From Erpobdella octoculata (lineage: Eukaryota; Annelida; Clitellata; Hirudinida; Erpobdellidae): 64,000 nt of DNA. The position numbers and the translations under genes are program-made. The stretch lies in contig OZ022240.1 in assembly GCA_963978895.1 (NCBI GenBank), positions 16,268,717-16,332,716 of the forward strand. Direction: 5' to 3'. Of the stretch, positions 1 through 64,000 are shown piece by piece (the first letter of the stretch is position 1; each line of letters opens with the position of its first letter). The notes under the pieces were generated by a model. It was not told the origin of the DNA. It searched no databases and saw only the letters and a list, made by a program, of their open reading frames with translations.

Positions 1-386
1 AAATTGATCGAAGAGTCGATCGGGTTAATCATGCCGTTAGAAATCAGTCACGTAACGTTTACGATTACTCTGGGCTTCGTAGAGAACGGTTTGGCAAATA
101 CGGAAACTCGTGTCAAACGTCTTATGGTCATTGCGGATACGTGGAAATGAATTTTAGACGATACTGTGACACAACTATTGTTTACCACAACGTTCGTCCA
201 AGTCGCTACTTTGGAAACGTTAAAATCGACCGCAGGCGAACGTCAGTCAAACATGAAGAATCAGCCGCAGACCTTGCCGACAACGAATACCGTCGTAGGC
301 TGAACGTCTTACGATCAGACAGAAAAATAGAAATAAACGAGAAGCGTTATGCGATGTTCAATCGACAGCGCGACTTTTCCAACTAA
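1..386 (+). CDS. Array protein, copy 0 (5' end outside window)
   Basis: Residues 150 to 276 of the array protein, starting two bases into the codon for K149 and ending at TAA 384-386. It is identical to the common sequence over this stretch and contains the third KIDRR motif. An internal ATG at 141-149 could be mistaken for a start, but it corresponds to M198 of the full protein. Confidence 0.8.
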   Translation, partial: IDRRVDRVNHAVRNQSRNVYDYSGLRRERFGKYGNSCQTSYGHCGYVEMNFRRYCDTTIVYHNVRPSRYFGNVKIDRRRTSVKHEESAADLADNEYRRRLNVLRSDRKIEINEKRYAMFNRQRDFSN

Positions 387-560
387 AATCCAATTAAAAC
401 TAGTCCTAATTTTGGAAAAAAAAACAAAACAAGAAACGGAGTTTCTGTGCTAAAAAACCGTACAAGTACAATAAAATGTGCATCAATTCTTCAAACAAAC
501 GGTTTTAAACAAAATGCAATAATTATTCAGCAACAAAGGAACATAATCCAACACAATAGA

Positions 561-951
561 GGCGCTGGTGGCAGAGCGGTAGAGCGTTCGCCTGTCGATC
601 GTCAGGTCGGCAGTTCGAGCCTCACCGGCGTCACCAGCGTAACTCCCTTAAGCAAGGTGTTCACTCGCATTGCTAAAGGGGTAAGCGCCTAAAAATTGTA
701 GAGGCGCTGGTGGCAGAGCGGTAGAGCGTTCGTCTGTCGATCGTTAGGCCGGCAGTTCGAACCTCACCGGCGTCACCAGCGTAACTCCCTTAAGCAAGGA
801 GTTCACTCGCATTGCTGAAGGGGTAGGCGCCTAAAGAGGCGCTGGTGGCAGAGCGTTAGAGCGTTCGCCTGTCGATCGTTAGGTCGGCAGTTCGAACCTC
901 ACCGGCGTCACCAGCGTAACACCCTTAAGCAAGGAGTTCACTCGCATTGCT
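561..951 (+). repeat. SINE-A cluster before copy 1: three tRNA-headed repeats (reference)
   Basis: Three direct copies start at 561, 703 and 838. Each begins with 76 nt of tRNA proportions. In the first, acceptor GGCGCTG (561-567) pairs fully with CGGCGTC (626-632), allowing two G-T pairs, followed by A and an encoded CCA (633-636). TGGCAGAGCGG (569-579) fits Pol III box A, and AGTTCGAGCC (612-621) is close to box B, with the T-loop in canonical position. The D-stem and T-stem have mismatches, so this is a tRNA-derived SINE head, not a working tRNA. The closest resemblance I see is to Gly(GCC) or Asp(GUC) tRNA. About 40 bp follow, with the core CCCTTAAGCAAGG and ATTGCT, similar to a central domain widespread in animal SINEs. 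Copies are joined by GTAGGCGCCTAAAG-type linkers. T to A at 921 is private to this unit. Confidence 0.75.
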
Positions 952-963
952 AAAAAAAGTTCT

Positions 964-1133
964 AACTCCGCCTTGCTTTTGCAAGCCAGTCCCAAGCCTG
1001 GAGAAAGGAGGAGGGGAAAGTTAAAAAGATCAAATTAAGATCCACGACAGGAAGTACTTAGGTGTTTCCAACATACAGCCATTTTAGTCTTAAAACACCT
1101 GGTGTAAAGGACTATAAACTATTACAATAAAAA
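964..1133 (+). mobile_element. SINE-B relic (reference copy)
   Basis: A 170-bp element running from AACTCCGCC to an A-rich end (ATTACAATAAAA). It is recognised by alignment with the young, A-tailed insertions at 42596 and 50484, which share most of its sequence (AGCCAGTCCCAAGCCTGG, AAAGGAGGAGG, CCACGACAGGAAGTACTTA, TGTAAAGGACTATAAACTAT). The relic has no intact A tail or target duplication, so it is older than the array. I see no clear Pol III boxes in it; it could be a truncated SINE or the tail of a longer element. One relic lies in every unit; positions are given with each promoter. Confidence 0.7.
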
Positions 1134-1258
1134 TGACGCTTTCTCGCAAAACTTGTCTTGGAAAAGGCGTGTGCTAAATCTCAGTGAAAAAAAACAATAA
1201 AAATTCAAGACTTTCACCTGATTCGATGCTGCGATGTGACACGTTAACTACGTAATTA

Positions 1259-1394
1259 GGCTTAAGTGCGGTAGCGAGCTTCATTCCTATTGGCTTAAGT
1301 GCGGTAGCGAGCTTCAATCTAATTGGCTGTTGGTCTCGACGACCCGCTTTGTCTCGTCTATAAAAGGCCGAACGGACGTACATTGAGTTCATTT
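1259..1394 (+). promoter_or_regulatory. Core promoter of copy 1 (reference)
   Basis: Two 33-bp direct repeats (1259-1291 and 1292-1324) start GGCTTAAGTGCGG and each ends so that ATTGG, an inverted CCAAT, is formed (1289-1293, 1322-1326). TATAAAA is at 1359-1365. TCATTT (1389-1394) fits the arthropod-type initiator TCAKTY, with A at 1391, 32 bp from the first T of TATA, which is the canonical distance. CCAAT elements then lie near -100 and -70. GGATC at 1417-1421 resembles a DPE but is one base off the expected position. The implied 5' UTR is 68 nt. The 120 bp between the SINE-B relic and the repeats (1134-1258) hold nothing I recognise. Confidence 0.75.
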
Positions 1395-1458
1395 CTCCTC
1401 AGCCTTCATACGGTTCGGATCATTCTTAGCTGCTCTCTGATTAAAAATAATCGAAAAC

Positions 1459-2289
1459 ATGGCCAGTCACTTAGACGTCGATAAGTTGACAACGATGATG
1501 AGATTCATGAACATGGAACCTCGTGATCGTTTCGATGACGATTTTGTAAACAATTTGTGTGTCTTTCTCAAGGAATTTGATTTAGGTAAAGATAATAAAT
1601 GTTGTTATCCTGAAGACTTTAACGAGGCCTTGTTGGACCTCGAAAAAACTCTACAGGAAACGCCGAACTCAGTTTCGACTGATCCATTGGAAACGATGAG
1701 CATCCAAGCGAAACCTTCGGAAGAAGTCGCTGTTAACGGCGAATATTTCGAAGCTAGTAGCCGAGAAAAACCTAAAGAAAATGAAAAAACACAATTTGGA
1801 TTTGTTTCGAGATATAAAATTGATCGAAGAAACAAACAAATGCGTCCGGCTAATTGCCTTGACGATATTGAAACAGTAGGTAGACGCTCACTTGGAAAGT
1901 ATAAAATTGATCGAAGAGTCGATCGGGTTAATCATGCCGTTAGAAATCAGTCACGTAACGTTTACGATTACTCTGGGCTTCGTAGAGAACGGTTTGGCAA
2001 ATACGGAAACTCGTGTCAAACGTCTTATGGTCATTGCGGATACGTGGAAATGAATTTTAGACGATACTGTGACACAACTATTGTTTACCACAACGTTCGT
2101 CCAAGTCGCTACTTTGGAAACGTTAAAATCGACCGCAGGCGAACGTCAGTCAAACATGAAGAATCAGCCGCAGACCTTGCCGACAACGAATACCGTCGTA
2201 GGCTGAACGTCTTACGATCAGACAGAAAAATAGAAATAAACGAGAAGCGTTATGCGATGTTCAATCGACAGCGCGACTTTTCCAACTAA
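1459..2289 (+). CDS. Unrecognised 276-residue array protein, copy 1 (reference copy)
   Basis: I do not recognise a family. Residues 1-110 are acidic (25 D/E against 13 K/R), have a hydrophobic, helix-prone stretch (about 5-65) and a C48-C49 pair. Residues 111-276 are basic, with 29 Arg and 9 Lys against 20 D/E, and are rich in Tyr and Asn. The motif KIDRR occurs three times, at 120-124, 149-153 and 223-227, preceded by RY, KY and NV. There are seven Cys (34, 48, 49, 133, 186, 193, 204). I see no signal peptide, membrane segment or known catalytic motif. The ATG at 1459 is chosen because it lies 68 nt after a well-placed initiator, in the context AAAACATGG. The gene is intronless, with AATAAA 84 nt past the stop. 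The charge layout would suit binding to nucleic acid or an acidic partner, but that is inference only. Confidence 0.8.
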   Translation: MASHLDVDKLTTMMRFMNMEPRDRFDDDFVNNLCVFLKEFDLGKDNKCCYPEDFNEALLDLEKTLQETPNSVSTDPLETMSIQAKPSEEVAVNGEYFEASSREKPKENEKTQFGFVSRYKIDRRNKQMRPANCLDDIETVGRRSLGKYKIDRRVDRVNHAVRNQSRNVYDYSGLRRERFGKYGNSCQTSYGHCGYVEMNFRRYCDTTIVYHNVRPSRYFGNVKIDRRRTSVKHEESAADLADNEYRRRLNVLRSDRKIEINEKRYAMFNRQRDFSN

Positions 2290-2334
2290 AATCCAATTAA
2301 AACTAGTCCTAATTTTGGAAAAAAAAACAAAACA

Positions 2335-2349
2335 AGAAACGGAGTTTCT
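2335..2349 (+). other. 3' UTR hairpin of the array gene
   Basis: AGAAAC-GGA-GTTTCT forms a perfect 6-bp stem with a 3-nt loop, 46-60 nt after the stop codon. It is present in every unit. Its position recalls the histone mRNA stem-loop, but the sequence does not match that consensus and an AATAAA follows, so it is recorded only as a conserved hairpin. Confidence 0.45.
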
Positions 2350-2372
2350 GTGCTAAAAAACCGTACAAGTAC

Positions 2373-2378
2373 AATAAA
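2373..2378 (+). terminator. AATAAA polyadenylation signal, copy 1
   Basis: AATAAA in the context ACAATAAAATGTG, followed by a T-rich stretch. It lies 84-89 nt after the stop in standard units and 99-104 nt after it in units with the 15-bp 3' UTR insert (after copies 5, 17, 18, 19, 21, 22, 23, 24, 27, 28 and 29). It supports a polyadenylated Pol II transcript that ends before the SINE-A cluster. Confidence 0.65.
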
Positions 2379-2447
2379 ATGTGCATCAATTTTTCAAACA
2401 AACGGTTTTAAACAAAATGCAATAATTATTCAGCAACAAAGGAACAT

Positions 2448-2956
2448 AAACTTAGACAGTTTCAAATCAATAGGCTCCAATCCATTCTCCGAGCAGCCGC
2501 TCGTCTTGTTCTTCAGCTGCCCGGCTGGTCTCCCGTATCAGATCTCATGTGGACGCAACTTCACTGGCTTCCTTTCCCGCAGAGAATTCAGTTCAAGTTG
2601 GGTCTGATGGTATACAAGTGCCTCCACCACACGGCTCCGGTCTACCTGCAGCAATTGTGTGTACCGATCTCAACGCTTGCTGGTCGGTCCCACCTTCGAT
2701 CGGCGGCTGCTGGCGACTTGTTCGTTCCATCGTCAAAGACAACGACTCTCGGCAGGCGCGGATTCTCCACTGCTGGTCCAGTTGTTTGGAACAGCCTATC
2801 TGCTGACCTGAGGAATCCAGCTTTGGACCTCGGCGGTTTCAGGAAGCTGCTTAAGACAGAACTTTATTCTTAAATTTATGATTTGACGCGACGCGCTTTT
2901 GTGACTTTTTAAAAAAAGCGCATTATAAATTTACATTTACATTACATTACATTTAC
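2448..2956 (+). mobile_element. 5'-truncated CR1/L2-like LINE end, first of four
   Basis: A 509-bp insertion relative to the standard spacer, placed after the polyadenylation signal. The frame from 2451 to the TAA at 2871-2873 (140 residues) reads as the extreme C-terminus of a non-LTR reverse transcriptase protein: AAARLVL, then TQLHWLPFPQRIQFKL, VYKCLHH, SLRSAA-like (HLRSAAAGDL), WNSLSADLRNPAL and FRKLLKTEL. This is the usual order in CR1/L2/Jockey-type LINEs. The catalytic region is absent. The 3' end is a short simple repeat of ATTAC/ATTTAC, as in CR1/L2 elements, with no poly(A) and no clear target duplication. This copy has TGG where the other three have CGG (residue before TQLHWL). Confidence 0.82.
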
Positions 2957-2972
2957 AATCCAACACAATAGA

Positions 2973-3363
2973 GGCGCTGGTGGCAGAGCGGTAGAGCGTT
3001 CGCCTGTCGATCGTCAGGTCGGCAGTTCGAGCCTCACCGGCGTCACCAGCGTAACTCCCTTAAGCAAGGTGTTCACTCGCATTGCTAAAGGGGTAAGCGC
3101 CTAAAAATTGTAGAGGCGCTGGTGGCAGAGCGGTAGAGCGTTCGTCTGTCGATCGTTAGGCCGGCAGTTCGAACCTCACCGGCGTCACCAGCGTAACTCC
3201 CTTAAGCAAGGAGTTCACTCGCATTGCTGAAGGGGTAGGCGCCTAAAGAGGCGCTGGTGGCAGAGCGTTAGAGCGTTCGCCTGTCGATCGTTAGGTCGGC
3301 AGTTCGAACCTCACCGGCGTCACCAGCGTAACTCCCTTAAGCAAGGAGTTCACTCGCATTGCT
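2973..3363 (+). repeat. SINE-A cluster before copy 2
   Basis: Three copies, starting at 2973, 3115 and 3250. The LINE fragment ends 16 bp upstream. Confidence 0.75.
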
Positions 3364-3669
3364 AAAAAAGTTCTAACTCCGCCTTGCTTTTGCAAGCCAG
3401 TCCCAAGCCTGGAGAAAGGAGGAGGGGAAAGTTAAAAAGATCAAATTAAGATCCACGACAGGAAGTACTTAGGTGTTTCCAACATACAGCCATTTTAGTC
3501 TTAAAACACCTGGTGTAAAGGACTATAAACTATTACAATAAAAATGACGCTTTCTCGCAAAACTTGTCTTGGAAAAGGCGTGTGCTAAATCTCAGTGAAA
3601 AAAAACAATAAAAATTCAAGACTTTCACCTGATTCGATGCTGCGATGTGACACGTTAACTACGTAATTA

Positions 3670-3805
3670 GGCTTAAGTGCGGTAGCGAGCTTCATTCCTA
3701 TTGGCTTAAGTGCGGTAGCGAGCTTCAATCTAATTGGCTGTTGGTCTCGACGACCCGCTTTGTCTCGTCTATAAAAGGCCGAACGGACGTACATTGAGTT
3801 CATTT
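3670..3805 (+). promoter_or_regulatory. Promoter of copy 2
   Basis: Two 33-bp repeats, TATA at 3770, predicted start A at 3802. SINE-B relic at 3375-3544. Confidence 0.7.
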
Positions 3806-3869
3806 CTCCTCAGCCTTCATACGGTTCGGATCATTCTTAGCTGCTCTCTGATTAAAAATAATCGAAAAC

Positions 3870-4700
3870 ATGGCCAGTCACTTAGACGTCGATAAGTTGA
3901 CAACGATGATGAGATTCATGAACATGGAACCTCGTGATCGTTTCGATGACGATTTTGTAAACAATTTGTGTGTCTTTCTCAAGGAATTTGATTTAGGTAA
4001 AGATAATAAATGTTGTTATCCTGAAGACTTTAACGAGGCCTTGTTGGACCTCGAAAAAACTCTACAGGAAACGCCGAACTCAGTTTCGACTGATCCATTG
4101 GAAACGATGAGCATCCAAGCGAAACCTTCGGAAGAAGTCGCTGTTAACGGCGAATATTTCGAAGCTAGTAGCCGAGAAAAACCTAAAGAAAATGAAAAAA
4201 CACAATTTGGATTTGTTTCGAGATATAAAATTGATCGAAGAAACAAACAAATGCGTCCGGCTAATTGCCTTGACGATATTGAAACAGTAGGTAGACGCTC
4301 ACTTGGAAAGTATAAAATTGATCGAAGAGTCGATCGGGTTAATCATGCCGTTAGAAATCAGTCACGTAACGTTTACGATTACTCTGGGCTTCGTAGAGAA
4401 CGGTTTGGCAAATACGGAAACTCGTGTCAAACGTCTTATGGTCATTGCGGATACGTGGAAATGAATTTTAGACGATACTGTGACACAACTATTGTTTACC
4501 ACAACGTTCGTCCAAGTCGCTACTTTGGAAACGTTAAAATCGACCGCAGGCGAACGTCAGTCAAACATGAAGAATCAGCCGCAGACCTTGCCGACAACGA
4601 ATACCGTCGTAGGCTGAACGTCTTACGATCAGACAGAAAAATAGAAATAAACGAGAAGCGTTATGCGATGTTCAATCGACAGCGCGACTTTTCCAACTAA
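3870..4700 (+). CDS. Array protein, copy 2
   Basis: Full length, 276 residues, same protein as the copy at 1459. The standard promoter lies directly upstream. The spacer in front of this unit carries a LINE fragment (2448-2956). Confidence 0.8.
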   Translation: MASHLDVDKLTTMMRFMNMEPRDRFDDDFVNNLCVFLKEFDLGKDNKCCYPEDFNEALLDLEKTLQETPNSVSTDPLETMSIQAKPSEEVAVNGEYFEASSREKPKENEKTQFGFVSRYKIDRRNKQMRPANCLDDIETVGRRSLGKYKIDRRVDRVNHAVRNQSRNVYDYSGLRRERFGKYGNSCQTSYGHCGYVEMNFRRYCDTTIVYHNVRPSRYFGNVKIDRRRTSVKHEESAADLADNEYRRRLNVLRSDRKIEINEKRYAMFNRQRDFSN

Positions 4701-4874
4701 AATCCAATTAAAACTAGTCCTAATTTTGGAAAAAAAAACAAAACAAGAAACGGAGTTTCTGTGCTAAAAAACCGTACAAGTACAATAAAATGTGCATCAA
4801 TTTTTCAAACAAACGGTTTTAAACAAAATGCAATAATTATTCAGCAACAAAGGAACATAATCCAACACAATAGA

Positions 4875-5265
4875 GGCGCTGGTGGCAGAGCGGTAGAGCG
4901 TTCGCCTGTCGATCGTCAGGTCGGCAGTTCGAGCCTCACCGGCGTCACCAGCGTAACTCCCTTAAGCAAGGTGTTCACTCGCATTGCTAAAGGGGTAAGC
5001 GCCTAAAAATTGTAGAGGCGCTGGTGGCAGAGCGGTAGAGCGTTCGTCTGTCGATCGTTAGGCCGGCAGTTCGAACCTCACCGGCGTCACCAGCGTAACT
5101 CCCTTAAGCAAGGAGTTCACTCGCATTGCTGAAGGGGTAGGCGCCTAAAGAGGCGCTGGTGGCAGAGCGTTAGAGCGTTCGCCTGTCGATCGTTAGGTCG
5201 GCAGTTCGAACCTCACCGGCGTCACCAGCGTAACTCCCTTAAGCAAGGAGTTCACTCGCATTGCT
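4875..5265 (+). repeat. SINE-A cluster before copy 3
   Basis: Three copies, starting at 4875, 5017 and 5152; standard sequence. Confidence 0.75.
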
Positions 5266-5571
5266 AAAAAAGTTCTAACTCCGCCTTGCTTTTGCAAGCC
5301 AGTCCCAAGCCTGGAGAAAGGAGGAGGGGAAAGTTAAAAAGATCAAATTAAGATCCACGACAGGAAGTACTTAGGTGTTTCCAACATACAGCCATTTTAG
5401 TCTTAAAACACCTGGTGTAAAGGACTATAAACTATTACAATAAAAATGACGCTTTCTCGCAAAACTTGTCTTGGAAAAGGCGTGTGCTAAATCTCAGTGA
5501 AAAAAAACAATAAAAATTCAAGACTTTCACCTGATTCGATGCTGCGATGTGACACGTTAACTACGTAATTA

Positions 5572-5707
5572 GGCTTAAGTGCGGTAGCGAGCTTCATTCC
5601 TATTGGCTTAAGTGCGGTAGCGAGCTTCAATCTAATTGGCTGTTGGTCTCGACGACCCGCTTTGTCTCGTCTATAAAAGGCCGAACGGACGTACATTGAG
5701 TTCATTT
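5572..5707 (+). promoter_or_regulatory. Promoter of copy 3
   Basis: Two 33-bp repeats, TATA at 5672, predicted start A at 5704. SINE-B relic at 5277-5446. Confidence 0.7.
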
Positions 5708-5771
5708 CTCCTCAGCCTTCATACGGTTCGGATCATTCTTAGCTGCTCTCTGATTAAAAATAATCGAAAAC

Positions 5772-6602
5772 ATGGCCAGTCACTTAGACGTCGATAAGTT
5801 GACAACGATGATGAGATTCATGAACATGGAACCTCGTGATCGTTTCGATGACGATTTTGTAAACAATTTGTGTGTCTTTCTCAAGGAATTTGATTTAGGT
5901 AAAGATAATAAATGTTGTTATCCTGAAGACTTTAACGAGGCCTTGTTGGACCTCGAAAAAACTCTACAGGAAACGCCGAACTCAGTTTCGACTGATCCAT
6001 TGGAAACGATGAGCATCCAAGCGAAACCTTCGGAAGAAGTCGCTGTTAACGGCGAATATTTCGAAGCTAGTAGCCGAGAAAAACCTAAAGAAAATGAAAA
6101 AACACAATTTGGATTTGTTTCGAGATATAAAATTGATCGAAGAAACAAACAAATGCGTCCGGCTAATTGCCTTGACGATATTGAAACAGTAGGTAGACGC
6201 TCACTTGGAAAGTATAAAATTGATCGAAGAGTCGATCGGGTTAATCATGCCGTTAGAAATCAGTCACGTAACGTTTACGATTACTCTGGGCTTCGTAGAG
6301 AACGGTTTGGCAAATACGGAAACTCGTGTCAAACGTCTTATGGTCATTGCGGATACGTGGAAATGAATTTTAGACGATACTGTGACACAACTATTGTTTA
6401 CCACAACGTTCGTCCAAGTCGCTACTTTGGAAACGTTAAAATCGACCGCAGGCGAACGTCAGTCAAACATGAAGAATCAGCCGCAGACCTTGCCGACAAC
6501 GAATACCGTCGTAGGCTGAACGTCTTACGATCAGACAGAAAAATAGAAATAAACGAGAAGCGTTATGCGATGTTCAATCGACAGCGCGACTTTTCCAACT
6601 AA
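5772..6602 (+). CDS. Array protein, copy 3
   Basis: Full length, common sequence. It is followed by a spacer that carries both a LINE fragment and, further on, the piggyBac-like element, so the next gene is 3.9 kb away. Confidence 0.8.
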   Translation: MASHLDVDKLTTMMRFMNMEPRDRFDDDFVNNLCVFLKEFDLGKDNKCCYPEDFNEALLDLEKTLQETPNSVSTDPLETMSIQAKPSEEVAVNGEYFEASSREKPKENEKTQFGFVSRYKIDRRNKQMRPANCLDDIETVGRRSLGKYKIDRRVDRVNHAVRNQSRNVYDYSGLRRERFGKYGNSCQTSYGHCGYVEMNFRRYCDTTIVYHNVRPSRYFGNVKIDRRRTSVKHEESAADLADNEYRRRLNVLRSDRKIEINEKRYAMFNRQRDFSN

Positions 6603-6760
6603 AATCCAATTAAAACTAGTCCTAATTTTGGAAAAAAAAACAAAACAAGAAACGGAGTTTCTGTGCTAAAAAACCGTACAAGTACAATAAAATGTGCATC
6701 AATTTTTCAAACAAACGGTTTTAAACAAAATGCAATAATTATTCAGCAACAAAGGAACAT

Positions 6761-7269: not shown

Positions 7270-7285
7270 AATCCAACACAATAGA

Positions 7286-7676: not shown

Positions 7677-8555
7677 AAAAAAGTTCTAACTCCGCCTTGC
7701 TTTTGCAAGCCAGTCCCAAGCCTGGAGAAAGGAGGAGGGGAAAGTTAAAAAGATCAAATTAAGATCCACGACAGGAAGTACTTAGGTGTTTCCAACATAC
7801 AGCCATTTTAGTCTTAAAACACCTGGTGTAAAGGACTATAAACTATTACAATAAAAATGACGCTTTCTCGCAAAACTTGTCTTGGAAAAGGCGTGTGCTA
7901 AATCTCAGTGAAAAAAAACAATAAAAATTCAAGACTTTCACCTGATTCGATGCTGCGATGTGACACGTTAACTACGTAATTAGGCTTAACCCGTTTTAGA
8001 CCATCGTACGTTTTACGAACACACTTATTTTTGGCGTTGCATAAAATTAAGTCGTAATTTTTTTTCTGTTAAAAGTTTTTTTTATGTTAAGAAAGCTTCA
8101 ATACACTGTATAAAATTTTTTAAATAATTTTTTTATTTATATTAAGTAGTTTAATCTGGGTTAGAATATGAGCATTTTCAAGGTTTTCGACCGATATAAC
8201 TTTAAAAATGTATTATGCTAATTTCATGAGAGTTATCATAACAAAAGTTTGAAATATCGAAAGAAGATGTACTCAAAAGTAAACAGCAACGTTAATTAAA
8301 TTTTATTGTGTTTACACTAACCCACAATCTGAACATGTATGAGTCATGCTCGTTCTACGATCGTTGGGCGTATAGAGTACTGTATGCGAACGAGTCGAAA
8401 CTAGTTTATTCAGCTTATAGGTGTGCAGTGGTTGAATTGGTGATAGTGTTTTTTGCAAATTTCATTCTTCGAATGAAATGTTTGTAAAGTTTAAAAATGA
8501 AAGGCGTCAAACAGAACGTTTTTTCACGTTGAAAGAAGCTATGTAACTAATTCTT

Positions 8556-8702
8556 GATGATGATGATAGCATTGAGGTTGACATACTTGTCATTCTTCCG
8601 CCCGGCGCATCATAATACGTGACTGATGAATAAGCAAATGAGGAAGAAATGTTATTCTTTGTAATATCCGGGAAGGTAGAAGTTGATTATACTAATGATG
8701 GG
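8556..8702 (+). pseudogene. piggyBac transposase remnant, N-terminal part
   Basis: Read in one frame this gives DDDDSIEVDILVILPPG, then a stop, VTDE, another stop, and an acidic stretch. The sequence PP followed by (S/T)DE and acidic residues is typical of the N-terminal region of piggyBac-derived proteins. Two in-frame TAA codons and a TAA just upstream make it non-coding. Confidence 0.6.
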
Positions 8703-8908
8703 ATGGGATTAGACTGTGTCTGTTCTTTGGGTGAAGAAATGTAGGTCGCAAATACGGTCAGTTCAATGCCGCGGCAACCAAAACGCCAAAAACGATTGAA
8801 ATGCACTTGGACCAAAAAGAGTCATTTGAATAGCCACTTTTAAAACAGTCTATATATAGCGAGTTTGAAACACCACAATGGTGCTTTGCTTGAAAAACCC
8901 CATATAGG

Positions 8909-9134
8909 CTGTTTAGGTTGTTTTATACCGATGAAATGAATTCATGCACGGTTGAAGAAACAAAACGATAGGGAAGATTCAGCAAATGGCCATGGTCATG
9001 ATCTGGAAAAGGCGAAAACAGTAGGTCGCTACAAGCTGGAAAATTATGGCAAAACACTGTACATGTGGGCCAAGTGCGGCAAACGACTTCATCGGAATTG
9101 TTTTGGTGCTTTCCGCACACTCATCCGGTTCTGA
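8909..9134 (+). pseudogene. piggyBac transposase remnant, start of core fused to C-terminus
   Basis: 8909-8971 reads LFRLFYTDEMNSCTVEETKR then TAG. This is the conserved start of the transposase core (ELF.LFFTDE...VEET). From 8952 in another frame, ending at the TGA of 9132-9134, is RYKLENYGK, YMWAKCGKRLH, NCFGAFRT, which resembles the C-terminal cysteine-rich domain, with tyrosine where the paired cysteines are expected. The large internal deletion therefore falls near 8970 and removes the catalytic region. Confidence 0.7.
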
Positions 9135-9482
9135 AACGACTATCATGAACTGCTTGACTGATTTATTGAATGTTAATTTTTTGGATTTTATTGAACTGTG
9201 TTACTGATAAAGTCAGAAATGTGTTTTTAGCTTTTTTGTTTACAGCCTAAAATTTATATTATAATTGTTTGCGTTGAGAACAAAAAAATTGACTTTTAAA
9301 CATTTTGTCGTTTTCAGTAGTCTATACGACCATCGTTCGAAAAACGAGCATAGTGAATTTTCAAAGTTTTCTTTCAAATAAAAAATAATTAAAAATAAAT
9401 CTGTTAAAACATAAGCAAGTAACTTAGAAATAACAAAAAAAATAATAGAAATCTAATTAATAAAGTTTTGGACCTAAACGGG

Positions 9483-9615
9483 TTAAGTGCGGTAGCGAGC
9501 TTCATTCCTATTGGCTTAAGTGCGGTAGCGAGCTTCAATCTAATTGGCTGTTGGTCTCGACGACCCGCTTTGTCTCGTCTATAAAAGGCCGAACGGACGT
9601 ACATTGAGTTCATTT
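9483..9615 (+). promoter_or_regulatory. Promoter of copy 4, first repeat interrupted
   Basis: The piggyBac-like element is inserted at the TTAA of the first 33-bp repeat, leaving GGC (7983-7985) on its far side. Both ATTGG boxes, TATA (9580) and the start A (9612) are intact. SINE-B relic at 7688-7857, beyond the transposon. Confidence 0.7.
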
Positions 9616-42462: not shown

Positions 42463-42791
42463 GGCTTAAGTGCGGTAGCGAGCTTCATTCCTATTGGCTT
42501 AAGTGCGGTAGCGAGCTTCAATCTAATTGGCTGTTGGTCTCGACGACCCGCTTTGTCTCGTCTATAAAAGGCCGAACGGACGTACATTGAGTTCAACTCC
42601 GCCTCGCCAATTGCGAGCCAGTCCCAAGCCTGGATAAAGGAGGAGGGACAGTTAAAAGGATCAAACTTTGATCCACGACAGGAAGTACTTATGTGCTTCC
42701 TATATACAGCCAATTCAGTCTTAAAACACTTGGTGTAAAGGACTATAAACTATCATAAAAAAAAAAAAAAAAAAATACATTGAGTTCATTT
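42463..42791 (+). promoter_or_regulatory. Promoter of copy 21, split by SINE
   Basis: The 33-bp repeats (42463-42528) and TATA (42563-42569) are separated from the original initiator (A at 42788) by the SINE and one copy of its target duplication, 193 bp in all. Downstream, the 5' UTR gains TATTGACTAG. SINE-B relic at 42167-42336. Confidence 0.75.
42596..42775 (+). mobile_element. Young SINE-B insertion in promoter of copy 21
   Basis: 180 bp ending in 19 A (42757-42775), flanked by a perfect 13-bp target duplication TACATTGAGTTCA (42583-42595 and 42776-42788). It is homologous over its full length to the SINE-B relic of the unit. It contains the hairpins CTCGC-CAATT-GCGAG, GGATCAA-ACT-TTGATCC and GGAAGTAC-TTAT-GTGCTTCC. 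A tail and target duplication of this quality indicate LINE-mediated retroposition. The 5' junction AGTTCAACTCC resembles the relic's own AGTTCTAACTCC, so the element may be 5'-truncated with microhomology. Confidence 0.88.
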
Positions 42792-42865: not shown

Positions 42866-43696
42866 ATGGCCAGTCACTTAGACGTCGATAAGTTGACAAC
42901 GATGATGAGATTCATGAACATGGAACCTCGTGATCGTTTCGATGACGATTTTGTAAACAATTTGTGTGTCTTTCTCAAGGAATTTGATTTAGGTAAAGAT
43001 AATAAATGTTGTTATCCTGAAGACTTTAACGAGGCCTTGTTGGACCTCTAAAAAACTCTACAGGAAACGCCGAACTCAGTTTCGACTGATCCATTGGAAA
43101 CGATGAGCATCCAAGCGAAACCTTCGGAAGAAGTCGCTGTTAACGGCGAATATTTCGAAGCTAGTAGCCGAGAAAAACCTAAAGAAAATGAAAAAACACA
43201 ATTTGGATTTGTTTCGAGATATAAAATTGATCAAAGAAACAAACAAATGCGTCCGGCTAATTGCCTTGACGATATTGAAACAGTAGGTAGACGCTCACTT
43301 GGAAAGTATAAAATTGATCGAAGAGTCGATCGGGTTAATCATGCCGTTAGAAATCAGTCACGTAACGTTTACGATTACTCTGGGCTTCGTAGAGAACGGT
43401 TTGGCAAATACGGAAACTCGTGTCAAACGTCTTATGGTCATTGCGGATACGTGGAAATGAATTTTAGACGATACTGTGACACAACTATTGTTTACCACAA
43501 CGTTCGTCCAAGTCGCTACTTTGGAAACGTTAAAATCGACCGCAGGCGAACGTCAGTCAAACATGAAGAATCAGCCGCAGACCTTGCCGACAACGAATAC
43601 CGTCGTAGGCTGAACGTCTTACGATCAGACAGAAAAATAGAAATAAACGAGAAGCGTTATGCGATGTTCAATCGACAGCGCGACTTTTCCAACTAA
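42866..43696 (+). pseudogene. Array protein, copy 21, nonsense at codon 62
   Basis: GAA to TAA at 43049-43051 truncates the product to 61 residues; the rest of the frame stays open to 43696. It also carries R123Q, which breaks the first KIDRR motif. It is the only visibly inactivated copy in the window. Its promoter is also interrupted: a 180-bp SINE separates TATA from initiator, and the 5' UTR has a 10-bp insertion. A reinitiation product from the ATG at 43100 would lack the acidic first domain and is unlikely. Confidence 0.85.
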
Positions 43697-50350: not shown

Positions 50351-50679
50351 GGCTTAAGTGCGGTAGCGAGCTTCATTCCTATTGGCTTAAGTGCGGTAGC
50401 GAGCTTCAATCTAATTGGCTGTTGGTCTCGACGACCCGCTTTGTCTCGTCTATAAAAGGCCGAACGGACGTACATTGAGTTCAACTCCGCCTCGCCAATT
50501 GCGAGCCAGTCCCAAGCCTGGATAAAGGAGGAGGGACAGTTAAAAGGATCAAACTTTGATCCACGACAGGAAGTACTTATGTGCTTCCTATATACAGCCA
50601 ATTCAGTCTTAAAACACTTGGTGTAAAGGACTATAAACTATCATAAAAAAAAAAAAAAAAAAATACATTGAGTTCATTT
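50351..50679 (+). promoter_or_regulatory. Promoter of copy 25, split by SINE
   Basis: The 33-bp repeats (50351-50416) and TATA (50451-50457) are cut off from the original initiator (A at 50676) by the same SINE as in copy 21. The coding sequence here is intact, so this unit shows whether a split promoter still works. SINE-B relic at 50055-50224. Confidence 0.75.
50484..50663 (+). mobile_element. Young SINE-B insertion in promoter of copy 25
   Basis: Same 180 bp, same 19-A tail (50645-50663), same 13-bp target duplication (50471-50483, 50664-50676) as at 42596. Two independent insertions would not be identical in all three, so one is a copy of the other made with the unit. Confidence 0.88.
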
Positions 50680-55002: not shown

Positions 55003-55066
55003 CTCCTCAGCCTTCATACGGTTCGGATCATTCTTAGCTGCTCTCTGATTAAAAATAATCGAAAAC

Positions 55067-56783: not shown

Positions 56784-56919
56784 GGCTTAAGTGCGGTAGC
56801 GAGCTTCATTCCTATTGGCTTAAGTGCGGTAGCGAGCTTCAATCTAATTGGCTGTTGGTCTCGACGACCCGCTTTGTCTCGTCTATAAAAGGCCGAACGG
56901 ACGTACATTGAGTTCATTT
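56784..56919 (+). promoter_or_regulatory. Promoter of copy 28
   Basis: Two 33-bp repeats, TATA at 56884, predicted start A at 56916. SINE-B relic at 56489-56658. Confidence 0.7.
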
Positions 56920-56983
56920 CTCCTCAGCCTTCATACGGTTCGGATCATTCTTAGCTGCTCTCTGATTAAAAATAATCGAAAAC

Positions 56984-57814
56984 ATGGCCAGTCACTTAGA
57001 CGTCGATAAGTTGACAACGATGATGAGATTCATGAACATGGAACCTCGTGATCGTTTCGATGACGATTTTGTAAACAATTTGTGTGTCTTTCTCAAGGAA
57101 TTTGATTTAGGTAAAGATAATAAATGTTGTTATCCTGAAGACTTTAACGAGGCCTTGTTGGACCTCGAAAAAACTCTACAGGAAACGCCGAACTCAGTTT
57201 CGACTGATCCATTGGAAACGATGAGCATCCAAGCGAAACCTTCGGAAGAAGTCGCTGTTAACGGCGAATATTTCGAAGCTAGTAGCCGAGAAAAACCTAA
57301 AGAAAATGAAAAAACACAATTTGGATTTGTTTCGAGATATAAAATTGATCGAAGAAACAAACAAATGCGTCCGGCTAATTGCCTTGACGATATTGAAACA
57401 GTAGGTAGACGCTCACTTGGAAAGTATAAAATTGATCGAAGAGTCGATCGGGTTAATCATGCCGTTAGAAATCAGTCACGTAACGTTAACGATTACTCTG
57501 GGCTTCGTAGAGAACGGTTTGGCAAATACGGAAACTCGTGTCAAACGTCTTATGGTCATTGCGGATACGTGGAAATGAATTTTAGACGATACTGTGACAC
57601 AACTATTGTTTACCACAACGTTCGTCCAAGTCGCTACTTTGGAAACGTTAAAATCGACCGCAGGCGAACGTCAGTCAAACATGAAGAATCAGCCGCAGAC
57701 CTTGCCGACAACGAATACCGTCGTAGGCTGAACGTCTTACGATCAGACAGAAAAATAGAAATAAACGAGAAGCGTTATGCGATGTTCAATCGACAGCGCG
57801 ACTTTTCCAACTAA
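56984..57814 (+). CDS. Array protein, copy 28, Y169N
   Basis: Full length. Tyr169 to Asn is shared with the next copy only. The 15-bp 3' UTR insert is present. Confidence 0.8.
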   Translation: MASHLDVDKLTTMMRFMNMEPRDRFDDDFVNNLCVFLKEFDLGKDNKCCYPEDFNEALLDLEKTLQETPNSVSTDPLETMSIQAKPSEEVAVNGEYFEASSREKPKENEKTQFGFVSRYKIDRRNKQMRPANCLDDIETVGRRSLGKYKIDRRVDRVNHAVRNQSRNVNDYSGLRRERFGKYGNSCQTSYGHCGYVEMNFRRYCDTTIVYHNVRPSRYFGNVKIDRRRTSVKHEESAADLADNEYRRRLNVLRSDRKIEINEKRYAMFNRQRDFSN

Positions 57815-58003
57815 AATCCAATTAAAACTAGTACGACAGAAATCTGTCCTAATTTTGGAAAAAAAAACAAAACAAGAAACGGAGTTTCTGTGCTAAAAAA
57901 CCGTACAAGTACAATAAAATGTGCATCAATTTTTCAAACAAACGGTTTTAAACAAAATGCAATAATTATTCAGCAACAAAGGAACATAATCCAACACAAT
58001 AGA

Positions 58004-58259
58004 GGCGCTGGTGGCAGAGCGGTAGAGCGTTCGCCTGTCGATCGTCAGGTCGGCAGTTCGAGCCTCACCGGCGTCACCAGCGTAACTCCCTTAAGCAAGG
58101 TGTTCACTCGCATTGCTAAAGGGGTAAGCGCCTAAAAATTGTAGAGGCGCTGGTGGCAGAGCGGTAGAGCGTTCGTCTGTCGATCGTTAGGCCGGCAGTT
58201 CGAACCTCACCGGCGTAACCAGCGTAACTCCCTTAAGCAAGGAGTTCACTCGCATTGCT
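58004..58259 (+). repeat. SINE-A cluster before copy 29, two copies only
   Basis: Copies start at 58004 and 58146; one 135-bp repeat is missing. C to A at 58217 breaks the G1-C72 acceptor pair of the second copy. This loss is independent of the one at 12602, since neither shares the other's private changes. Confidence 0.75.
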
Positions 58260-58565
58260 AAAAAAGTTCTAACTCCGCCTTGCTTTTGCAAGCCAGTCCC
58301 AAGCCTGGAGAAAGGAGGAGGGGAAAGTTAAAAAGATCAAATTAAGATCCACGACAGGAAGTACTTAGGTGTTTCCAACATACAGCCATTTTAGTCTTAA
58401 AACACCTGGTGTAAAGGACTATAAACTATTACAATAAAAATGACGCTTTCTCGCAAAACTTGTCTTGGAAAAGGCGTGTGCTAAATCTCAGTGAAAAAAA
58501 ACAATAAAAATTCAAGACTTTCACCTGATTCGATGCTGCGATGTGACACGTTAACTACGTAATTA

Positions 58566-58701
58566 GGCTTAAGTGCGGTAGCGAGCTTCATTCCTATTGG
58601 CTTAAGTGCGGTAGCGAGCTTCAATCTAATTGGCTGTTGGTCTCGACGACCCGCTTTGTCTCGTCTATAAAAGGCCGAACGGACGTACATTGAGTTCATT
58701 T
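58566..58701 (+). promoter_or_regulatory. Promoter of copy 29
   Basis: Two 33-bp repeats, TATA at 58666, predicted start A at 58698. SINE-B relic at 58271-58440. Confidence 0.7.
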
Positions 58702-58765
58702 CTCCTCAGCCTTCATACGGTTCGGATCATTCTTAGCTGCTCTCTGATTAAAAATAATCGAAAAC

Positions 58766-59596
58766 ATGGCCAGTCACTTAGACGTCGATAAGTTGACAAC
58801 GATGAAGAGATTCATGAACATGGAACCTCGTGATCGTTTCGATGACGATTTTGTAAACAATTTGTGTGTCTTTCTCAAGGAATTTGATTTAGGTAAAGAT
58901 AATAAATGTTGTTATCCTGAAGACTTTAACGAGGCCTTGTTGGACCTCGAAAAAACTCTACAGGAAACGCCGAACTCAGTTTCGACTGATCCATTGGAAA
59001 CGATGAGCATCCAAGCGAAACCTTCGGAAGAAGTCGCTGTTAACGGCGAATATTTCGAAGCTAGTAGCCGAGAAAAACCTAAAGAAAATGAAAAAACACA
59101 ATTTGGATTTGTTTCGAGATATAAAATTGATCGAAGAAACAAAAAAATGCGTCCGGCTAATTGCCTTGACGATATTGAAACAGTAGGTAGACGCTCACTT
59201 GGAAAGTATAAAATTGATCGAAGAGTCGATCGGGTTAATCATGCCGTTAGAAATCAGTCACGTAACGTTAACGATTACTCTGGGCTTCGTAGAGAACGGT
59301 TTGGCAAATACGGAAACTCGTGTCAAACGTCTTATGGTCATTGCGGATACGTGGAAATGAATTTTAGACGATACTGTGACACAACTATTGTTTACCACAA
59401 CGTTCGTCCAAGTCGCTACTTTGGAAACGTTAAAATCGACCGCAGGCGAACGTCAGTCAAACATGAAGAATCAGCCGCAGACCTTGCCGACAACGAATAC
59501 CGTCGTAGGCTGAACGTCTTACGATCAGACAGAAAAATAGAAATAAACGAGAAGCGTTATGCGATGTTCAATCGACAGCGCGACTTTTCCAACTAA
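58766..59596 (+). CDS. Array protein, copy 29, M14K, Q127K and Y169N
   Basis: The most diverged intact copy. It has Met14 to Lys and Gln127 to Lys, both private, plus Y169N shared with copy 28. The SINE-A cluster before it has only two copies. Confidence 0.8.
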   Translation: MASHLDVDKLTTMKRFMNMEPRDRFDDDFVNNLCVFLKEFDLGKDNKCCYPEDFNEALLDLEKTLQETPNSVSTDPLETMSIQAKPSEEVAVNGEYFEASSREKPKENEKTQFGFVSRYKIDRRNKKMRPANCLDDIETVGRRSLGKYKIDRRVDRVNHAVRNQSRNVNDYSGLRRERFGKYGNSCQTSYGHCGYVEMNFRRYCDTTIVYHNVRPSRYFGNVKIDRRRTSVKHEESAADLADNEYRRRLNVLRSDRKIEINEKRYAMFNRQRDFSN

Positions 59597-59785
59597 AATC
59601 CAATTAAAACTAGTACGACAGAAATCTGTCCTAATTTTGGAAAAAAAAACAAAACAAGAAACGGAGTTTCTGTGCTAAAAAACCGTACAAGTACAATAAA
59701 ATGTGCATCAATTTTTCAAACAAACGGTTTTAAACAAAATGCAATAATTATTCAGCAACAAAGGAACATAATCCATCACAATAGA

Positions 59786-60176
59786 GGCGCTGGTGGCAGA
59801 GCGGTAGAGCGTTCGCCTGTCGATCGTCAGGTCGGCAGTTCGAGCCTCACCGGCGTCACCAGCGTAACTCCCTTAAGCAAGGTGTTCACTCGCATTGCTA
59901 AAGGGGTAAGCGCCTAAAAATTGTAGAGGCGCTGGTGGCAGAGCGGTAGAGCGTTCGTCTGTCGATCGTTAGGCCGGCAGTTCGAACCTCACCGGCGTCA
60001 CCAGCGTAACTCCCTTAAGCAAGGAGTTCACTCGCATTGCTGAAGGGGTAGGCGCCTAAAGAGGCGCTGGTGGCAGAGCGTTAGAGCGTTCGCCTGTCGA
60101 TCGTTAGGTCGGCAGTTCGAACCTCACCGGCGTCACCAGCGTAACTCCCTTAAGCAAGGAGTTCACTCGCATTGCT
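59786..60176 (+). repeat. SINE-A cluster before copy 30
   Basis: Three copies, starting at 59786, 59928 and 60063. The leader reads CCATCACAA instead of CCAACACAA. Confidence 0.75.
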
Positions 60177-60482
60177 AAAAAAGTTCTAACTCCGCCTTGC
60201 TTTTGCAAGCCAGTCCCAAGCCTGGAGAAAGGAGGAGGGGAAAGTTAAAAAGATCAAATTAAGATCCACGACAGGAAGTACTTAGGTGTTTCCAACATAC
60301 AGCCATTTTAGTCTTAAAACACCTGGTGTAAAGGACTATAAACTATTACAATAAAAATGACGCTTTCTCGCAAAACTTGTCTTGGAAAAGGCGTGTGCTA
60401 AATCTCAGTGAAAAAAAACAATAAAAATTCAAGACTTTCACCTGATTCGATGCTGCGATGTGACACGTTAACTACGTAATTA

Positions 60483-60618
60483 GGCTTAAGTGCGGTAGCG
60501 AGCTTCATTCCTATTGGCTTAAGTGCGGTAGCGAGCTTCAATCTAATTGGCTGTTGGTCTCGACGACCCGCTTTGTCTCGTCTATAAAAGGCCGAACGGA
60601 CGTACATTGAGTTCATTT
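60483..60618 (+). promoter_or_regulatory. Promoter of copy 30
   Basis: Two 33-bp repeats, TATA at 60583, predicted start A at 60615. SINE-B relic at 60188-60357. Confidence 0.7.
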
Positions 60619-60682
60619 CTCCTCAGCCTTCATACGGTTCGGATCATTCTTAGCTGCTCTCTGATTAAAAATAATCGAAAAC

Positions 60683-61513
60683 ATGGCCAGTCACTTAGAC
60701 GTCGATAAGTTGACAACGATGATGAGATTCATGAACATGGAACCTCGTGATCGTTTCGATGACGATTTTGTAAACAATTTGTGTGTCTTTCTCAAGGAAT
60801 TTGATTTAGGTAAAGATAATAAATGTTGTTATCCTGAAGACTTTAACGAGGCCTTGTTGGACCTCGAAAAAACTCTACAGGAAACGCCGAACTCAGTTTC
60901 GACTGATCCATTGGAAACGATGAGCATCCAAGCGAAACCTTCGGAAGAAGTCGCTGTTAACGGCGAATATTTCGAAGCTAGTAGCCGAGAAAAACCTAAA
61001 GAAAATGAAAAAACACAATTTGGATTTGTTTCGAGATATAAAATTGATCGAAGAAACAAACAAATGCGTCCGGCTAATTGCCTTGACGATATTGAAACAG
61101 TAGGTAGACGCTCACTTGGAAAGTATAAAATTGATCGAAGAGTCGATCGGGTTAATCATGCCGTTAGAAATCAGTCACGTAACGTTTACGATTACTCTGG
61201 GCTTCGTAGAGAACGGTTTGGCAAATACGGAAACTCGTGTCAAACGTCTTATGGTCATTGCGGATACGTGGAAATGAATTTTAGACGATACTGTGACACA
61301 ACTATTGTTTACCACAACGTTCGTCCAAGTCGCTACTTTGGAAACGTTAAAATCGACCGCAGGCGAACGTCAGTCAAACATGAAGAATCAGCCGCAGACC
61401 TTGCCGACAACGAATACCGTCGTAGGCTGAACGTCTTACGATCAGACAGAAAAATAGAAATAAACGAGAAGCGTTATGCGATGTTCAATCGACAGCGCGA
61501 CTTTTCCAACTAA
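60683..61513 (+). CDS. Array protein, copy 30
   Basis: Full length, common sequence, standard promoter. Confidence 0.8.
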   Translation: MASHLDVDKLTTMMRFMNMEPRDRFDDDFVNNLCVFLKEFDLGKDNKCCYPEDFNEALLDLEKTLQETPNSVSTDPLETMSIQAKPSEEVAVNGEYFEASSREKPKENEKTQFGFVSRYKIDRRNKQMRPANCLDDIETVGRRSLGKYKIDRRVDRVNHAVRNQSRNVYDYSGLRRERFGKYGNSCQTSYGHCGYVEMNFRRYCDTTIVYHNVRPSRYFGNVKIDRRRTSVKHEESAADLADNEYRRRLNVLRSDRKIEINEKRYAMFNRQRDFSN

Positions 61514-61687
61514 AATCCAATTAAAACTAGTCCTAATTTTAGAAAAAAAAACAAAACAAGAAACGGAGTTTCTGTGCTAAAAAACCGTACAAGTACAATA
61601 AAATGTGCATCAATTTTTCAAACAAACGGATTTAAACAAAATGCAATAATTATTCAGCAACAAAGGAACATAATCCAACACAATAGA

Positions 61688-62078
61688 GGCGCTGGTGGCA
61701 GAGCGGTAGAGCGTTCGCCTGTCGATCGTCAGGTCGGCAGTTCGAGCCTCACCGGCGTCACCAGCGTAACTCCCTTAAGCAAGGTGTTCACTCGCATTGC
61801 TAAAGGGGTAAGCGCCTAAAAATTGTAGAGGCGCTGGTGGCAGAGCGGTAGAGCGTTCGTCTGTCGATCGTTAGGCCGGCAGTTCGAACCTCACCGGCGT
61901 CACCAGCGTAACTCCCTTAAGCAAGGAGTTCACTCGCATTGCTGAAGGGGTAGGCGCCTAAAGAGGCGCTGGTGGCAGAGCGTTAGAGCGTTCGCCTGTC
62001 GATCGTTAGGTCGGCAGTTCGAACCTCACCGGCGTCACCAGCGTAACTCCCTTAAGCAAGGAGTTCACTCGCATTGCT
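61688..62078 (+). repeat. SINE-A cluster before copy 31
   Basis: Three copies, starting at 61688, 61830 and 61965; standard sequence. Confidence 0.75.
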
Positions 62079-62384
62079 AAAAAAGTTCTAACTCCGCCTT
62101 GCTTTTGCATGCCAGTCCCAAGCCTGGAGAAAGGAGGAGGGGAAAGTTAAAAAGATCAAATTAAGATCCACGACAGGAAGTACTTAGGTGTTTCCAACAT
62201 ACAGCCATTTTAGTCTTAAAACACCTGGTGTAAAGGACTATAAACTATTACAATAAAAATGACGCTTTCTCGCAAAACTTGTCTTGGAAAAGGCGTGTGC
62301 TAAATCTCAGTGAAAAAAAACAATAAAAATTCAAGACTTTCACCTGATTCGATGCTGCGATGTGACACGTTAACTACGTAATTA

Positions 62385-62520
62385 GGCTTAAGTGCGGTAG
62401 CGAGCTTCATTCCTATTGGCTTAAGTGCGGTAGCGAGCTTCAATCTAATTGGCTGTTGGTCTCGACGACCCGCTTTGTCTCGTCTATAAAAGGCCGAACG
62501 GACGTACATTGAGTTCATTT
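62385..62520 (+). promoter_or_regulatory. Promoter of copy 31
   Basis: Two 33-bp repeats, TATA at 62485, predicted start A at 62517. SINE-B relic at 62090-62259 has the TGCATGCC variant of copies 16 and 17. Confidence 0.7.
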
Positions 62521-62584
62521 CTCCTCAGCCTTCATACGGTTCGGATCATTCTTAGCTGCTCTCTGATTAAAAATAATCGAAAAC

Positions 62585-63415
62585 ATGGCCAGTCACTTAG
62601 ACGTCGATAAGTTGACAACGATGATGAGATTCATGAACATGGAACCTCGTGATCGTTTCGATGACGATTTTGTAAACAATTTGTGTGTCTTTCTCAAGGA
62701 ATTTGATTTAGGTAAAGATAATAAATGTTGTTATCCTGAAGACTTTAACGAGGCCTTGTTGGACCTCGAAAAAACTCTACAGGAAACGCCGAACTCAGTT
62801 TCGACTGATCCATTGGAAACGATGAGCATCCAAGCGAAACCTTCGGAAGAAGTCGCTGTTAACGGCGAATATTTCGAAGCTAGTAGCCGAGAAAAACCTA
62901 AAGAAAATGAAAAAACACAATTTGGATTTGTTTCGAGATATAAAATTGATCGAAGAAACAAACAAATGCGTCCGGCTAATTGCCTTGACGATATTGAAAC
63001 AGTAGGTAGACGCTCACTTGGAAAGTATAAAATTGATCGAAGAGTCGATCGGGTTAATCATGCCGTTAGAAATCAGTCACGTAACGTTTACGATTACTCT
63101 GGGCTTCGTAGAGAACGGTTTGGCAAATACGGAAACTCGTGTCAAACGTCTTATGGTCATTGCGGATACGTGGAAATGAATTTTAGACGATACTGTGACA
63201 CAACTATTGTTTACCACAACGTTCGTCCAAGTCGCTACTTTGGAAACGTTAAAATCGACCGCAGGCGAACGTCAGTCAAACATGAAGAATCAGCCGCAGA
63301 CCTTGCCGACAACGAATACCGTCGTAGGCTGAACGTCTTACGATCAGACAGAAAAATAGAAATAAACGAGAAGCGTTATGCGATGTTCAATCGACAGCGC
63401 GACTTTTCCAACTAA
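62585..63415 (+). CDS. Array protein, copy 31
   Basis: Full length, common sequence. It is the last complete gene; its unit runs past its SINE-A cluster and off the right edge in the SINE-B relic. Confidence 0.8.
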   Translation: MASHLDVDKLTTMMRFMNMEPRDRFDDDFVNNLCVFLKEFDLGKDNKCCYPEDFNEALLDLEKTLQETPNSVSTDPLETMSIQAKPSEEVAVNGEYFEASSREKPKENEKTQFGFVSRYKIDRRNKQMRPANCLDDIETVGRRSLGKYKIDRRVDRVNHAVRNQSRNVYDYSGLRRERFGKYGNSCQTSYGHCGYVEMNFRRYCDTTIVYHNVRPSRYFGNVKIDRRRTSVKHEESAADLADNEYRRRLNVLRSDRKIEINEKRYAMFNRQRDFSN

Positions 63416-63589
63416 AATCCAATTAAAACTAGTCCTAATTTTGGAAAAAAAAACAAAACAAGAAACGGAGTTTCTGTGCTAAAAAACCGTACAAGTACAA
63501 TAAAATGTGCATCAATTTTTCAAACAAACGGTTTTAAACAAAATGCAATAATTATTCAGCAACAAAGGAACATAATCCAACACAATAGA

Positions 63590-63980
63590 GGCGCTGGTGG
63601 CAGAGCGGTAGAGCGTTCGCCTGTCGATCGTCAGGTCGGCAGTTCGAGCCTCACCGGCGTCACCAGCGTAACTCCCTTAAGCAAGGTGTTCACTCGCATT
63701 GCTAAAGGGGTAAGCGCCTAAAAATTGTAGAGGCGCTGGTGGCAGAGCGGTAGAGCGTTCGTCTGTCGATCGTTAGGCCGGCAGTTCGAACCTCACCGGC
63801 GTCACCAGCGTAACTCCCTTAAGCAAGGAGTTCACTCGCATTGCTGAAGGGGTAGGCGCCTAAAGAGGCGCTGGTGGCAGAGCGTTAGAGCGTTCGCCTG
63901 TCGATCGTTAGGTCGGCAGTTCGAACCTCACCGGCGTCACCAGCGTAACTCCCTTAAGCAAGGAGTTCACTCGCATTGCT
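63590..63980 (+). repeat. SINE-A cluster at the right edge
   Basis: Three copies, starting at 63590, 63732 and 63867. The window ends 20 bp later, at the start of the next SINE-B relic. Confidence 0.75.
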
Positions 63981-63982
63981 AA

Positions 63983-64000
63983 AAAAGTTCTAACTCCGCC
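63983..64000 (+). mobile_element. SINE-B relic, cut by window edge
   Basis: The first bases of the next relic (TTCTAACTCCGCC) directly follow the last SINE-A cluster and run off the right edge. Confidence 0.6.

Follow-up and report, generated by a model that had tools for sequence, protein, structure and literature searches.

A tandem gene array in Erpobdella octoculata with tRNA-like repeats and a twister ribozyme match in each spacer

What is multiplied in a long and almost uniform stretch of the Erpobdella octoculata genome, and what is a ribozyme motif doing in every one of its spacers? The stretch, called the window here, comprises 64,000 nt of assembly GCA_963978895.1 (contig OZ022240.1, positions 16,268,717-16,332,716, forward strand) and is a recently homogenised head-to-tail gene array. 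The explanation that we favour as a whole, with a confidence somewhat above even, is that the array consists of single-exon genes of RNA polymerase II (pol II) and that their spacer houses a retroposon that is headed by tRNA-like repeats and bears a twister ribozyme. Tandem gene arrays are already known; what is new is the twister-bearing, tRNA-headed tract together with an insertion that begins at the predicted cleavage point.

The array and its gene

The array, the unit taken as canonical and the parts of its gene, which contains one long open reading frame (ORF), lie as follows.

1..64000, forward strand: tandem array of 31 complete units with partial units at the edges; the canonical unit is 1,902 bp
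4686..6587, forward strand: unit 3, the canonical unit, with zero differences from the consensus; its anatomy recurs in the other units
4784..4789, forward strand: AATAAA poly(A) signal
5567..5641, forward strand: a pair of 33-bp promoter repeats; both contain ATTGG, an inverted CCAAT box
5670..5704, forward strand: TATA box TCTATAAAAGGCC with the predicted start site, at an initiator-like TTCATTT about 32 bp downstream of TATAAAA
5772..6602, forward strand: single-exon ORF of 276 codons for an orphan protein with a basic C-terminal part and three [YV]KIDRR motifs
42866..43696, forward strand: the sole disrupted ORF among 31, in unit 21, with a nonsense codon at codon 62

Anchor searches of the window find the ORF start and the TATA box 31 times each, and the stop-codon anchor and the AATAAA context 32 times each. 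A sequence-only reading of the window had counted 32 near-identical intronless genes head to tail; the array stands, but the count becomes 31 complete units and one partial. The few substitutions that it had seen between units amount to 45 in 58,692 aligned bases, which corresponds to 99.92% identity to the majority consensus. It was also right that the array runs beyond both edges, as base 1 falls inside an ORF and the last bases of the window come just after a tRNA-like triplet. The unit length is exactly 1,902 bp in 9 of the 31 units and between 1,782 and 2,037 bp in 26, and insertions lengthen five to 2,123-3,908 bp. With units longer than 1 kb that are repeated head to tail in many copies at high identity, and with an ORF in each unit, the window has the marks of a protein-coding macrosatellite or tandem gene array. 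The units differ by mosaic substitutions and by 15-bp, 10-bp, 33-bp and 135-bp indels, several of which are common to non-adjacent units, and the lengths of single-base homopolymers account for some further differences. Three kinds of transposon insertion are also present, namely the end of a long interspersed nuclear element (LINE), a piggyBac-like remnant and a twister retroposon, and two of these kinds are common to non-adjacent units. That non-adjacent units share insertions speaks for unequal exchange or gene conversion among the units, and it disfavours the copying of one unit by the assembler.

Each unit of about 1.9 kb had also been read as carrying its own promoter, ORF and polyadenylation signal, and our counts agree with this: the TATA box is present in 31/31 units and AATAAA in 31/31, and the ORF is open in 30/31 (two of these with one extra codon). 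Units 7 and 8 have three copies of the promoter repeat rather than two. Of the 31 units, 29 contain the 11-base string GAGTTCATTTC, and in units 13 and 16 a single base 5' of TTCATTT is different; the twister insertion of units 21 and 25 parts the TATA box from TTCATTT. The stop codon is followed by AATAAA after about 84 bp, and the mRNA predicted from the start site to AATAAA is about 1.0 kb long. A bacterial promoter scan was uninformative. The identical 276-residue protein is encoded by 19 of the 31 units, and when the unit is resampled 500 times under a first-order Markov model, the longest ORF that arises has 226 residues, compared with the 276 observed. The ORF variants among units, counted without the two units with an extra codon, comprise 12 nonsynonymous changes, one of which is the stop, and 2 synonymous changes, which is near the chance proportion, as 79% of the possible changes are nonsynonymous.

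The protein had not been recognised from the sequence, and it matches no known family in the databases searched. A word-based search of 5.8 billion proteins returns a single match (P0001), which is 99% identical, comes from a 1,089-nt contig and has three residue changes that are absent from all copies in the window. Because this contig is about as long as the predicted mRNA, it gives a weak hint of transcription. Searches for distant homologues with the whole protein and with its regions return only P0001. For the protein, no Pfam family lies above its cut-off (the best is Surp, E 0.042, with 14.3 bits against 21.1 required), NCBIfam and PDB give no match, and PHROGs (best E 0.15) and PADLOC give nothing usable. 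With no recognisable family in Pfam, NCBIfam or PDB, a histone or another known tandem gene family was rejected. AlphaFold2 with five near-identical sequences yields no usable model (mean predicted local distance difference test score 32). The isoelectric point (pI) of the protein is 8.8 and that of its last 166 residues is 10.2; two of its three [YV]KIDRR motifs share an exact 18-nt DNA repeat. From the charge only, we would guess that this lineage-restricted, partly basic protein is a bulk protein that is probably associated with nucleic acid or chromatin.

The spacer tract and the inserted twister copy

The spacer, which runs from the poly(A) signal to the promoter of the following gene, holds the features listed here, and a relative of its distal part is inserted in units 21 and 25, between 12-bp target-site duplications (TSDs).

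4867..4872, forward strand: possible 5' TSD ACAATA, abutting the start of the tract; suggestive only
4873..5266, forward strand: three tandem tRNA-like monomers of about 142, 135 and 117 bp, with an A box in the first two and a B box in all
5272..5332, forward strand: resident match to the type-P1 twister ribozyme (RF03160), directly after the monomers
5333..5436, forward strand: body downstream of the resident twister, also present in the retroposed copy
5437..5442, forward strand: possible 3' copy of the ACAATA duplication, abutting the end of the tract
42583..42787, forward strand: retroposed twister element of unit 21, with the element at 42595-42775 between the 12-bp TSDs TACATTGAGTTC
50471..50675, forward strand: the same insertion in unit 25; the two compared 305-base stretches are identical

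The window contains 95 tRNA-like monomers, three per unit in 28 of the 31 complete units, two in 2 units and four in 1. The A box of RNA polymerase III (pol III) is present in 64/95 monomers and the B box in 93/95, and both boxes, 44 bp apart, occur together in 64/95. The A box is absent from the third monomer in 29/29 three-monomer tracts, and also from the fourth monomer. The consensus unit has two A-B pairs, compared with a mean of 0.012 in 1,000 resamplings, and pol III A and B boxes are the mark of a tRNA-derived short interspersed nuclear element (SINE). Genuine tRNA genes were rejected, since ARAGORN in its bacterial setting finds none and the Rfam tRNA model is silent at E up to 1; a mascRNA match with E 0.31 was taken as chance. 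Three monomers folded in isolation give strongly stable structures (z -4.67 to -4.95), most of them hairpin-like. We call the monomers tRNA-like because the tRNA tools are negative yet the folds are stable and mostly hairpin-like. Exact-pattern scans of viral and prokaryotic contigs, which do not include the home genome, find no copies. The tail of each monomer opens with TAACTCC or a similar string, which resembles the twister start, and by eye AACTCC...GGAGTT could pair; a ribozyme model search over the monomer tails (4873-5266) gives no match.

The twister match stands in the same place in 31/31 units. The matches are full-length (positions 1-68 of 68; E 3.8e-12 to 5.4e-12, 63.4-63.9 bits) and retain the core strings UAA, GCC, GUCCCAAGCC, AAAGG and GAGGG. 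Of the resident copies, 28/31 are identical, and the remaining three carry one common change in the P3 hairpin. The predicted cleavage site lies 5' of AAC at 5277. The presence of ACAATA at both ends of the tract of monomers, twister and body is suggestive, short of proof, of their having entered together as a putative composite retroposon, tRNA-headed and twister-bearing, whose boundary we infer.

The insertion in units 21 and 25 adds 193 bp, made up of a 181-bp element that ends in 19 A and of the 12-bp duplication TACATTGAGTTC, and it lies in the 5' untranslated region, at the predicted transcription start. The element opens with AACTCC, the first bases past the expected cleavage point, and the bases that precede it are target DNA. 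Its alignment to the resident copy, twister and body together, has 153 identities, 20 mismatches and 3 gaps. By eye, one pair of P3 is changed on both sides, from U-A to C-G, and the two inserts, which match the twister model with E 1.1e-9 and 55.4 bits, retain the U before AAAG that the residents have lost; in the cmscan register, three of the four P1 pairs are broken. The insert looks like a reverse-transcribed 3' product of twister self-cleavage, which would be the simplest account of these bases. A 5' end at the predicted cleavage site, a tail and a TSD are also the hallmarks of a ribozyme-headed retroposon of the SIDE kind (Short Internally Deleted Element), here seen in one event. The first bases of the inserts (42595 and 50483) fall at the predicted start site, and TATA-driven transcripts would thus begin at about the ribozyme cleavage point, a coincidence that could be due to chance.

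Under the favoured explanation, each unit would be transcribed from its own TATA promoter and the size of the array would set the protein dose, while unequal exchange or gene conversion would keep the units alike and spread insertions among them. The resident retroposon would comprise two to four tRNA-like monomers, the first ones with pol III boxes, a type-P1 twister and a body of about 105 nt. Read-through RNA that starts either at the pol III heads or in the gene upstream would cut itself at the twister. This cut would separate the upstream RNA from a body RNA with a 5'-OH end and would keep the transcripts of neighbouring genes apart; if the pol III heads are used, it would also separate the heads from the body, and TTTT may stop pol III earlier. 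The 3' product of a diverged relative would have been polyadenylated, reverse-transcribed by LINE machinery that uses poly(A) and integrated at one unit's start site, and would then have spread to a second unit.

Several observations weigh against this explanation. The Rfam gathering score of 67.2 is not reached at any of the 33 twister sites (31 residents and 2 inserts). Compared with the consensus, the residents have G in place of U before AAAG, their P3 loop is shorter, and one of the outer positions of P1 is unpaired. Minimum-energy folding misses the twister fold and does no better than with shuffled sequences (z 0.13 for the resident and -1.13 for the insert), in a plain form that cannot represent pseudoknots. 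The ACAATA duplication is short, at 6 bp. TTTT occurs inside the resident twister and body, where pol III would stop early, and is absent from the retroposed copy. There is only one independent retroposition event, common to two units, and the 5' junction of the insert is ambiguous by 1 nt. As GTTC is found before the insert and also before the resident twister, 5'-truncation with microhomology is possible, and in an alternative register seen by eye the GTTC of the target and the GGAC of the element could form pairs. Furthermore, the ORF variants within the array look neutral and lend no support to purifying selection.

Other explanations of the array and its spacer

The twister and the tRNA-like parts could be two unrelated dead insertions, and the copy in units 21 and 25 could be a 5'-truncation that fell on the cleavage point by chance. 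We regard this as unlikely but worth serious weight: the TTTT runs in the resident tract, the absence of the A box from the third monomer, the single event and the GTTC before both twisters would all suit it. However, the start of the insert meets the cleavage point within 1 nt, a possible common TSD surrounds the whole tract, and the P3 pair has changed on both sides, which argues against dead and unrelated parts.

A second alternative, to which we give a little less credence, concerns the gene rather than the spacer. The array could be a selfish or sex-linked amplicon that was amplified for its own transmission or against a rival, as ampliconic germline genes are. The orphan protein, the strong recent homogenisation and the neutral-looking variants suit such an arms-race amplicon, but the protein searches find no related single-copy gene, and no evidence speaks positively for it.

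Much less probable is a coding retrozyme, in which the twisters would cut multi-unit transcripts into 1.9-kb units with the ORF and the heads; these might be circularised, and the units or the body might be ligated or retroposed to seed new copies. If true, this would make the array a twister-based retrozyme that codes for a protein. The scheme fits the single twister per unit, always in one orientation (31/31), and twister cleavage would leave 5'-OH and cyclic-phosphate termini, which a ligase of the host could join, as in the retrozyme model outlined in PMC7761336. The circular unit RNA is also more stable than 20 resamplings (z -3.4), with monomers that are already stable by themselves (z about -4.7 to -4.9). 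However, a TATA promoter and a poly(A) signal are present in every unit, no minus-strand ribozyme is found at E up to 1, and the circular RNA is not rod-like, with 60% of its bases paired compared with 59% in resamplings, and with 36 hairpins. An agent like hepatitis delta virus (HDV), or another rod-like circular RNA, was rejected because there is no minus-strand ribozyme and because the pairing is like that of controls and the fold has 36 hairpins, despite the z of -3.4.

An assembly artefact, in which the assembler multiplied one or a few units, is the least probable of all: the high identity and the homopolymer-length differences would suit it, but the mosaic substitutions, the four sizes of indel and the three kinds of transposon, several of them common to non-adjacent units, make a duplicated assembly unlikely.

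Known systems and other insertions

D4Z4/DUX4-type macrosatellites and histone gene arrays are long homogeneous head-to-tail gene arrays, and the sequence-only reading had placed the window beside them. The comparison holds for a homogeneous gene array. The protein here is unrelated to the families tested, and the spacer with tRNA-like repeats and a twister, like the LINE, piggyBac-like and twister-retroposon insertions, was left out of that account. Twister ribozymes are widespread, but little is known of their biology in animals.

The closest parallels that we found are the following elements with a ribozyme. The Sm-alpha and Sj-alpha elements of schistosomes are high-copy, SINE-like retroposons with a self-cleaving ribozyme, and tRNA-Gln-derived sequences of S. 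mansoni resemble Sm-alpha (PMC2770079). They share with the present element a SINE-like nature and an encoded ribozyme; theirs is a hammerhead, whereas ours is a twister, and the element here lies inside a gene array with a tandemly repeated tRNA-like head. The R2 SIDEs are non-autonomous elements with a 5' ribozyme and a poly-A tail, and an R2/R1 hybrid class of them has a 14-bp target duplication (PMC3414825). They have an HDV-like (R2) ribozyme, a target in the ribosomal DNA and no pol III promoter, whereas the element here has a twister and the start site of a pol II gene as its target, and the resident tract carries pol III boxes. PMC7761336 mentions in one sentence, as work in preparation, that RTE retrotransposons have twisters at their 5' end; the retroposed element here likewise has its twister at the 5' end, and it is 181 bp long and non-autonomous. 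Animal non-LTR (long terminal repeat) retrozymes carry a self-cleaving ribozyme once per tandem repeat (PMC7761336, PMC7229834). Their ribozyme is a hammerhead, the repeats span 150-300 bp, and no protein-coding region or promoter is recognised; with a twister, a 276-codon ORF and a 1.9-kb unit, the array was rejected as a member. A literature search that took in few subscription journals found no paper that treats twister ribozymes together with both SINEs and retroposons.

The cleavage-point insertion and the tRNA-headed twister tract tie the ribozyme to retroposition, and the insertion suggests that a relative of the twister cleaves in the living germline. A twister once per array unit raises the question of whether twisters insulate tandem genes from read-through RNA. 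The array also offers a well-resolved example of amplification, in which a lineage-restricted gene has reached dozens of almost identical copies.

Two further transposon insertions are present in the window.

2449..2957, forward strand: 3' end of a non-LTR retrotransposon, 509 bp with approximate ends; at the same site in units 2, 4, 21 and 26
7986..9486, forward strand: DNA-transposon remnant of 1,493 bp in unit 4, with a TTAA duplication and CCC...GGG termini

The 509-bp LINE end, which we take to be CR1/L2-like, carries a short repeat tail of the ATTTAC type. It has 184 protein relatives, and the top scorer is about 70% identical (among the best 120 of 184); none of five of these LINE relatives reaches a Pfam family above the cut-off. 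The 1,493-bp remnant, presumably piggyBac-like, lies between the spacer and the promoter, where the first promoter repeat begins. Four pieces of it reach no Pfam family above the cut-off, and a PDB search of the pieces gives just one match, with E 1.6, for one piece. In addition, a 15-bp insertion (GTACGACAGAAATCT) lies directly 3' of the stop codon, at consensus position 32, in 11 of the 31 units (units 6, 18-20, 22-25 and 28-30), and a 10-bp insertion unrelated to it is found in units 21, 22 and 25; both are possible transposon footprints.

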